From: Actinomycetales bacterium
GTDB taxonomy: Bacteria > Actinomycetota > Actinomycetes > Nanopelagicales > Nanopelagicaceae
Assembly: GCA_018969355.1 (NCBI GenBank)
Contig: JAGWYO010000012.1
Span: 1 to 43,165, forward strand
Direction of reading: 5' to 3'
DNA: 43,165 bases
Shown here: piece by piece, positions 19,249 to 25,198 of the stretch
Layout: every line of letters starts with the position of its first letter
Position numbering within the stretch: position 1 is the first letter of the stretch
Made by a program: the position numbers and the translations under genes
The notes under the pieces: model-generated
What the model was told of the DNA's origin: nothing
The model's database searches: none
Seen by the model: only the letters and a program-made list of their open reading frames with translations

Positions 19249-19270
19249 TGGGTAACCATACAATGCGACT
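19249..19270. promoter_or_regulatory. Interlocked divergent leaderless promoters, permease / moaD
   Basis: Only 22 bp separate two divergent ATG codons. On the plus strand TACAAT (19259-19264) is 6 nt before the moaD ATG (19271). On the minus strand TATGGT (19260-19255) is 6 nt before the permease ATG (19248). The two -10-like hexamers overlap by the two bases TA at 19259-19260. Both mRNAs would begin at or next to the start codon. Simultaneous use seems impossible, so the two directions should compete. Confidence 0.6.
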
Positions 19271-23042: not shown

Positions 23043-23623
23043 TTCTTTGCCAGATATTCCATAGCAACGACAAGGTCATGTGGCGTATCAACATCAATCA
23101 TGGCCTTTTCAATCTCTGGGCTCATATGTATTTCATGGATAGTTAGGTGTGCAATTAAAGTGCGCATAGAGGCTCCATGAGGGTCTCCAATTGCGGATAG
23201 AGCGTTTTCTAAAGATTCGCGGCGATAGAGCCCAGCTAGTGGTTGTTTGTAACCCTGTGAATCAACATACATAATCGCATCATCGTGTGATGTCATTGCA
23301 CTTAACAAATGAATCATATGAGCACCTGCAAATGGCATATCGGTGGCTAGAACACCAACAATCTCACTCTCGCAGAATTCCAAAGCAGCAGCGATGCCCG
23401 CTACTGGGCCACCACCAACTGGATTTTCTTGGACACAACGATAAGAAGCACCATCAAATAATGGATCTGCTCCCACGATGATAATTTCAAATTCTTGAGG
23501 AATGCTTGTAAGAATGTGATGAATCAACACCTGGTGACCCAAAATCGCTTGGGATTTATCTGCCCCAAAGCGAGAGCTGGTGCCGCCACTTAAGACGATG
23601 ATGCTTCCGGCTTTGGATTTCAT
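23039..23623 (-). CDS. mobA: Molybdenum cofactor guanylyltransferase
   Basis: This 194-residue GTP-transferase converts Mo-molybdopterin to the MGD cofactor. N-terminal signature is VLSGGTSSRFGADKSQAIL; ENPVGGGPVAGIAAAL and GVLATDMPFAGAHMIHLL follow, with the metal-binding Asp. Bis-MGD is what FdsA needs, so this gene ties the cofactor operon to formate dehydrogenase. It is first in the mobA-moaA operon. A TATCCT hexamer 6 nt before ATG 23623 suggests a leaderless mRNA. Confidence 0.93.
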   Translation of the reverse strand: MKSKAGSIIVLSGGTSSRFGADKSQAILGHQVLIHHILTSIPQEFEIIIVGADPLFDGASYRCVQENPVGGGPVAGIAAALEFCESEIVGVLATDMPFAGAHMIHLLSAMTSHDDAIMYVDSQGYKQPLAGLYRRESLENALSAIGDPHGASMRTLIAHLTIHEIHMSPEIEKAMIDVDTPHDLVVAMEYLAKK

Positions 23624-23641
23624 TTGGCTAGGATACTGACT
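23624..23641. promoter_or_regulatory. Shared symmetric -10 element between mobA and a metallophosphoesterase
   Basis: The 18 bp between two divergent ATG codons hold TAGGATA (23629-23635). Read forward, TAGGAT (23629-23634) lies 7 nt before ATG 23642. Read in reverse, TATCCT (23635-23630) lies 6 nt before ATG 23623. One near-palindromic heptamer can thus act as the -10 box for both genes, each giving a leaderless transcript. Any -35 elements would lie inside the opposite coding regions. Confidence 0.6.
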
Positions 23642-25198
23642 ATGGCATTTGCGCGTGGTGAAGCAAACGAGTTGGGCTGGCGCAACCTTGTCAAGGTGCC
23701 ATCAGAGGCACATTGTGGGCATGCATTTCCCAGCACTAGCACTCCTGTTTTATTGCTTCACCATCTTTCCGACCTTCATGTCTGTGATGCGCAATCACCC
23801 ACTCGCCCTGAATATTTAGATCGCAATGCCGATCCGGATAGCCCCATTCGTGAACAAGTTGGAACCATTGGCACATACCGTGCACATTCCATGCTCTCTC
23901 CCCATGTTGTTGAATCTATGGTGCAGTCCCTCAACTCAATTACAAAGGGACCACTTTCAGGACATGAAATTGCAGGCGCAATTATTACCGGTGATACAAC
24001 AGATAATGCACAAAAAAACGAAGTCGACTGGTACTTGGCACTTCTAGATGGTTTAGAGATACGTCCTGATTCAGGAGATTTTTCTCATTACGAAGGTGTA
24101 ATTGATGATGAGGCCCAACACTATGACGTTCGGTATTGGCACCCACATGGAACACCGGTGGGCAAAGAAGATGATCTTCCCCGGGCAAAATATGGATTCC
24201 CCATTGTTGCTAATCTTTTAAACACTTGTCGCGCACCATTTAAGGCAACGGGATTAAATTTTCCTTGGTTTGCCGTTCACGGAAATCACGATGGACTTTT
24301 GCAAGGAACCGTTGCACCAACGGATGCTGTCAATAAGGAAATGGTCGGCGGTAAGCGGTATATAGGTTTGCCATCAACGACAAATCTCTTTGAGGTATTA
24401 ATGCAGTTTAGGGAAGTTGGCCCAGCTGGATATCCTCCCGCAGATGATGCCCCATTTATTGAAGTCGCTGCAGATGTGCAGCGACGAGCAATAGAGCGGG
24501 GCGAATATGCACAACTACACCTTGATTCTCCAGGGTTACCACGTGGTCATGGATTTACCGAAGAAAATGCCCGCACTAAGACGATGTATTACTCAACCTA
24601 TATTCAAGCCGTGAAATTAATTGTGATAGATAGTGTTAATCAATACGGTGGTTGGCAAGGCTCAATCGACGAAGAGCAGTTCCAATGGCTGGAAAAAGAA
24701 GTAGCTGAATCTGGTATACCCGTTGTTTTAGCCTCTCATCACCCTTTGAGCAAAATGTTTAATGACTTTGCACCAACTGGACGCCGTGTTTGTGTAGATG
24801 AAATTCGCCACATGTTACTGAAATATCCAAAAGTCATTGCCTGGCTTGCCGGGCATGAACACCGACACCATGTTGAGTGGATTGGCGATGTGGAAGAAGT
24901 TAATGGTTTCTGGCAGATAGAAACTGCATCTCATGCTGATTGGCCACAACAATCTCGCACAGTTGAAATAGTCACCGATGAATCTGGAGATTATTACTTG
25001 GGTTTAACTGTTATTGACCATGCTGCTGGAATTGACTATGGCGCTGCCATTACTCCCCTAGAAATTGCTGCACTCTCTCGAACAATTAGCGCAAATGTGT
25101 GGCAGAAGCGTCCTGAACTTGGTGCAAAGCATGGAATTGATTGGTGGTTAGGTAGAGCTACGGATCGAAATGTGGTCTTAAAGATTAATAAGCGCTAA
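23642..25198 (+). CDS. Large calcineurin-like metallophosphoesterase
   Basis: This is a 518-residue member of an actinobacterial metallophosphoesterase family. The dimetal motifs are in order: HHLSDLHVCDAQ (D-x-H), ITGDTTDN (GD), WFAVHGNHDGL (GNHD), VLASHHPL (H) and LAGHEHRHHVEW (GHxH). No signal peptide is visible, so it is probably cytoplasmic. I start at ATG 23642; the upstream TTG 23624 would overlap the promoter element. The substrate is unknown; a phosphoester or cyclic nucleotide is possible. Its stop overlaps that of the convergent MgtC-family gene by 4 bp. Confidence 0.85.
   Translation: MAFARGEANELGWRNLVKVPSEAHCGHAFPSTSTPVLLLHHLSDLHVCDAQSPTRPEYLDRNADPDSPIREQVGTIGTYRAHSMLSPHVVESMVQSLNSITKGPLSGHEIAGAIITGDTTDNAQKNEVDWYLALLDGLEIRPDSGDFSHYEGVIDDEAQHYDVRYWHPHGTPVGKEDDLPRAKYGFPIVANLLNTCRAPFKATGLNFPWFAVHGNHDGLLQGTVAPTDAVNKEMVGGKRYIGLPSTTNLFEVLMQFREVGPAGYPPADDAPFIEVAADVQRRAIERGEYAQLHLDSPGLPRGHGFTEENARTKTMYYSTYIQAVKLIVIDSVNQYGGWQGSIDEEQFQWLEKEVAESGIPVVLASHHPLSKMFNDFAPTGRRVCVDEIRHMLLKYPKVIAWLAGHEHRHHVEWIGDVEEVNGFWQIETASHADWPQQSRTVEIVTDESGDYYLGLTVIDHAAGIDYGAAITPLEIAALSRTISANVWQKRPELGAKHGIDWWLGRATDRNVVLKINKR

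Follow-up and report, generated by a model that had tools for sequence, protein, structure and literature searches.

A predicted bidirectional core promoter with one shared -10 element between divergent mobA and phosphoesterase genes in an actinobacterial genome

How might two divergent genes be transcribed from an intergenic region of 18 bp? The question is raised by positions 23624-23641 (TTGGCTAGGATACTGACT) of a 43,165-nucleotide stretch of actinobacterial DNA (hereafter, the window), which make up the entire gap between mobA, on the reverse strand, and a phosphoesterase gene on the forward strand. The original prediction was that a single heptamer, TAGGATA, may act as -10 element for both genes, and that both products would be leaderless. 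Comparing this locus with its relatives, we find it very probable that the 18 bp constitute a bidirectional core promoter, with one shared -10 and two leaderless or near-leaderless messages. The features are collected in Table 1.

Anatomy and context of the 18-bp gap

The gap is bordered by CAT at 23621-23623 (the mobA ATG on the reverse strand) and by the phosphoesterase ATG at 23642-23644. Direct reading bore out the placement of TAGGAT and TATCCT, 7 nt and 6 nt before their respective ATGs, and the 18-bp spacing announced between two real genes was confirmed by the coordinates and by Pfam matches for both reading frames. The heptamer had been described as symmetric, which is true of TA-N3-TA, the portion relevant to a TANNNT -10, but not of the sequence as a full palindrome, the reverse complement of TAGGATA being TATCCTA. 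The site thus carries overlapping -10 elements on both strands (TANNNTA), as in bidirectional promoters based on -10 symmetry, and in both genes a TANNNT precedes the start codon by about 12-13 bp, as in leaderless (TA-led) genes. A generic sigma-70 scan gave no match at 23624-23641, as expected of a scan that demands a -35.

Table 1. Coordinates of the genes and predicted promoter features in the window
Feature	Position	Strand	Evidence
Bidirectional core promoter (predicted)	23624..23641	.	Length and register kept in 32/32 relatives with adjacent mobA
Heptamer TAGGATA (TA-N3-TA), common to both directions	23629..23635	.	TAGGATA in 31/32, TAGAATA in 1/32
Predicted -10 TAGGAT, phosphoesterase	23629..23634	+	Ends 7 nt before ATG; orthologue and genome-wide signal
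Predicted -10 TATCCT, mobA	23630..23635	-	Ends 6 nt before ATG; kept in 32/32 with adjacent mobA, lost in 9/9 without
Predicted phosphoesterase transcription start	23642 (or 23641)	+	Inferred from -10 spacing
Predicted mobA transcription start	23623 (or 23624)	-	Inferred from -10 spacing
Calcineurin-like phosphoesterase, 518 aa	23642..25198	+	Pfam, E 5e-07
mobA, 194 aa	23039..23623	-	Pfam MobA-like NTP transferase, E 8e-25
Six-gene run mobA-moeA-moaC-mog-moaE-moaA	19513..23623	-	Overlapping reading frames on one strand
Second bidirectional candidate, 22 bp	19249..19270	.	Overlapping predicted -10s; same layout in the relative G015

The six genes led by mobA, of which mobA, moeA and moaC were named by Pfam, and mog, moaE and moaA putatively by sequence and cluster, probably form one molybdenum-cofactor operon driven from the 23624-23641 promoter. 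The contig belongs to a 1.4 Mb genome with a GC content of ~46%, and for the phosphoesterase locus, named relatives come from uncultured actinobacteria and from strain IMCC19121. This suggests that the host is a streamlined, freshwater-type actinobacterium, presumably of the acI group (Planktophila-like).

We propose that the sigma factor of the housekeeping RNA polymerase would read TAGGATA on either strand, as TAGGAT rightward and as TATCCT leftward. The phosphoesterase message would begin at the A of ATG or one base earlier, and the mobA-led molybdenum-cofactor message likewise at its ATG or one base earlier, both being translated without a Shine-Dalgarno site. With one polymerase fitting at a time, the two directions would be mutually exclusive at binding. 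The start sites, the promoter activity and this exclusion at 23624-23641 are predictions from sequence, and they build on the observed anatomy, conservation, genome-wide leaderless signal and neighbour-gene effect. The expectation that both products are leaderless fits the genome-wide placement of TANNNT, but could be wrong by a single base: with a 6-nt spacing, the forward start would fall on 23641 (T) and not on 23642 (A), and position 23624 is an A on the reverse strand, which makes a one-base mobA leader possible.

Conservation of the heptamer and its dependence on the neighbouring gene

The comparison set comprised 32 distinct relatives in which mobA is adjacent to the phosphoesterase gene, and nine phosphoesterase orthologues without mobA at that place. 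Wherever mobA is adjacent, both -10 spacings are invariant (32/32): 7 nt to the phosphoesterase ATG, and 6 nt to the mobA start, which is ATG in 27 relatives and GTG in 5. All 41 orthologues retain the phosphoesterase TANNNT at 6-7 nt, whereas the seventh heptamer position (A 23635), which only the mobA -10 needs, is A in 32/32 relatives with mobA and in 0/9 of those without, where T or C is found. This neighbour dependence gives a Fisher value of 3e-9, which overstates the independent evidence because the nine loci without mobA represent perhaps three lineages and hence not nine independent cases. Pairwise identity is highest in the heptamer (0.99), followed by the phosphoesterase-side spacer (0.91) and the mobA-side spacer (0.76), against 0.53 at third codon positions.

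Part of this pattern could be taken to mean that the phosphoesterase gene alone uses the -10, with a mobA promoter located within the phosphoesterase gene and a TATCCT that occurs on the reverse strand by coincidence. The better conservation of the phosphoesterase-side spacer is in line with this, as is the base preceding the start codon: T or C precedes the phosphoesterase ATG in 32/32 relatives, as at most 7-nt-spaced starts, and mobA departs from the rule, with a purine before its ATG in most relatives, unlike most leaderless starts in the genomes G015 and G014 surveyed below. We nevertheless hold this explanation to be unlikely, since it accounts neither for the mobA-specific A 23635, invariant beside mobA and missing elsewhere, nor for a mobA start codon fixed at exactly 6 nt, and since the gap offers no Shine-Dalgarno site for mobA.

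The behaviour of mobA at other places is mixed. Such mobA genes have TATTAT 6 nt before ATG at two loci (L009 and L010), and no clear TANNNT at 6-7 nt was found at two others (L008 and L011). We count the latter, together with the purine before the mobA ATG, against a shared promoter. At these same two loci, an apparent tRNA gene was seen by eye a few tens of bases upstream of mobA.

Conservation of GGATACTGACT extends past the TANNNT positions and the frame is open from an upstream TTG at 23624, so that the block might be mainly a regulator binding site, or coding sequence, and not a shared -10. In several relatives the TTG position does not hold a start codon, T-to-C and other changes would alter residues, and orthologues without an adjacent mobA do not retain GGATACTGACT, all of which makes such a reading extremely unlikely. 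The in-frame TTG as phosphoesterase start was itself rejected, as it is not conserved in relatives. An extra operator may overlap the predicted shared promoter.

Leaderless starts and compact divergent pairs in relatives

We surveyed 2.56 Mb from two related genomes, one complete (G015, 1.36 Mb) and the other covered in stretches (1.2 Mb of G014), with genes called by a simple hexamer-based caller. In 21% of G015 and 20% of G014 genes, TANNNT precedes the start codon by 6 or 7 nt (beginning 12 or 13 bases before it), against ~1% at every other position in each, and a Shine-Dalgarno core precedes 2% of these genes vs 26-28% of the remaining ones. Leaderless promoters are thus common in both genomes. 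TAGGCT and TAGACT are the commonest forms, TAGGAT and TATCCT rank within the top eight at 6-nt spacing, and the -35 region has only a trace of signal (T at one position in 46%). In position, in share of genes and in the lack of a conserved -35, this class resembles the TA-led genes described in Actinobacteria, where TANNNT lies ~12 bp before the start codon of about a fifth of genes (PMC3160421), and the M. tuberculosis start-site map, in which a -35 motif was not found (PMC3898074).

The rarity of Shine-Dalgarno cores in genes with such a TANNNT also bears on the possibility of a leadered phosphoesterase message, with AGGA (23630-23633) as ribosome site and a promoter inside mobA. The 8 nt between AGGA and ATG would be workable; the motif overlaps the -10, though, and is not kept in orthologues, some of which carry TAGACT, TAGAAT or TAGAATA and lack AGGA while retaining the TANNNT (41/41). 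We regard this as very unlikely.

Among 301 divergent pairs in the two genomes, six are spaced by exactly 18 bp, and five of the six have a shared TANNNTA in the same 5/6 register, where ~0.2 would be expected from the local pair density and the fraction of pairs with both motifs. These five cases correspond to four gene pairs, whose names were assigned by sequence: crp-like/nth (in both genomes), mobA/phosphoesterase, birA/accD and nucleoside hydrolase/ribokinase. No pair shorter than 18 bp with both motifs occurred among the 301. A random 18-mer would contain TANNNTA in either of two workable registers in ~1% of cases; the 32/32 conservation and the recurrence at exactly 18 bp in relatives show that the site is not due to chance. 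Heptamer conservation, the neighbour-dependent loss of one half and the excess of 18-bp pairs support the proposal that a single -10 may serve both genes.

In 45 genus genomes, the in-register pattern was counted 83 times (counts added by hand) against 43 for a shifted control, so that about half of the raw matches arise by chance and a site has to be judged by its gene context. The shared 18-bp birA/accD layout is kept in the five genus members examined; outside the genus, none of the 25 loci examined showed an 18-bp layout, birA not being found upstream or its aligned end lying 92-375 bp off. Many relatives carry two CAT-N5-TANNNTA-N6-ATG sites ~10.7 kb apart (e.g. G000:C13:52714 and 63427), whose G015 counterparts are nucleoside hydrolase/ribokinase and birA/accD.

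Other spacings were also considered. The 17-bp and 19-bp heptamer versions were rejected as classes because they occur at 24 and 12 places, respectively, across the 45 genomes, about or below the ~21 that the shifted control predicts for each orientation. A conserved 17-bp family (CATCACAGTAGG...; CATCACAGTAGGSTARSCNNATG-like) was seen in many genus genomes. In G014 (L163-L222), several divergent pairs spaced by 25-26 bp show their -10s back to back as AGNCTAATAGACT, with TAGGCT or TAGACT on one strand and TAGACT on the other. This may be a third recurring spacing.

The window itself contains the second compact candidate of Table 1, flanked by a TSUP/TauE-like membrane protein gene and a moaD-like gene. 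There, TATGGT (reverse strand, 19260-19255) and TACAAT (forward strand, 19259-19264) overlap in TA, each 6 nt from its ATG, and the predicted start sites are 23 bp apart, a distance that matches one published bidirectional class. The molybdenum-cofactor region is thus bounded by such compact sites at both ends.

Relation to known promoters and biological meaning

Bidirectional promoters based on -10 symmetry had been cited as a known phenomenon, which the published E. coli and Salmonella cases match. They are defined by divergent start sites 7-25 bp apart, most commonly 18 bp, since at this distance -11A on one strand falls opposite -7T on the other (PMC10268837). From sequence, the predicted starts at 23624-23641 would be 18-19 bp apart: 19 if both lie at the A of ATG, one above the published optimum, which we count against a shared promoter, and 18 if one lies a base earlier. 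The enterobacterial cases resemble our site in their near-symmetric -10 for both strands, their TA-N3-TA core and their starts ~18 bp apart; by contrast, in the accessible parts of these reports, their messages have leaders and the second RNA is in many cases antisense or noncoding (PMC12825309, PMC10268837). Here both start codons coincide with the predicted start sites, so that the intergenic region would be the core and nothing else. Opposing polymerases cannot bind together, and competition matters mainly if one direction is strong (PMC12825309).

Unlike the TA-led genes of Actinobacteria (PMC3160421), two divergent genes of this kind have one TANNNT in common at 23624-23641. In M. tuberculosis, divergent promoters lying close together are reported, among them the leaderless prpD/Rv1129c pair, and the accessible part of the source does not state that one -10 is shared (PMC3898074). 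The combination of leaderless with bidirectional or divergent promoters was not described in the literature searched, which is weak evidence as subscription papers fell mostly outside the search. Our results support the view that the site would combine known bidirectional and actinobacterial leaderless mechanisms in an unusually compact arrangement, recurrent in the lineage. It is new in form only, both start codons directly flanking one -10.

Tentatively, shared-core leaderless promoters could form a recurring class in streamlined actinobacteria, with fixed divergent spacing (18 bp for TANNNTA, 22 bp for TA), pairs mutually exclusive at polymerase binding and, at 23624-23641, a molybdenum-cofactor operon tied to the phosphoesterase gene, which we consider possible rather than probable. 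The predicted control region illustrates how little sequence two genes may need, namely 18 bp with no space for a leader or ribosome site, kept across many species. Furthermore, mobA/phosphoesterase, birA/accD, crp-like/nth and nucleoside hydrolase/ribokinase would offer natural test sites for two-direction competition, and the spacing signature may be used to find leaderless pairs in uncultured, genome-reduced lineages.
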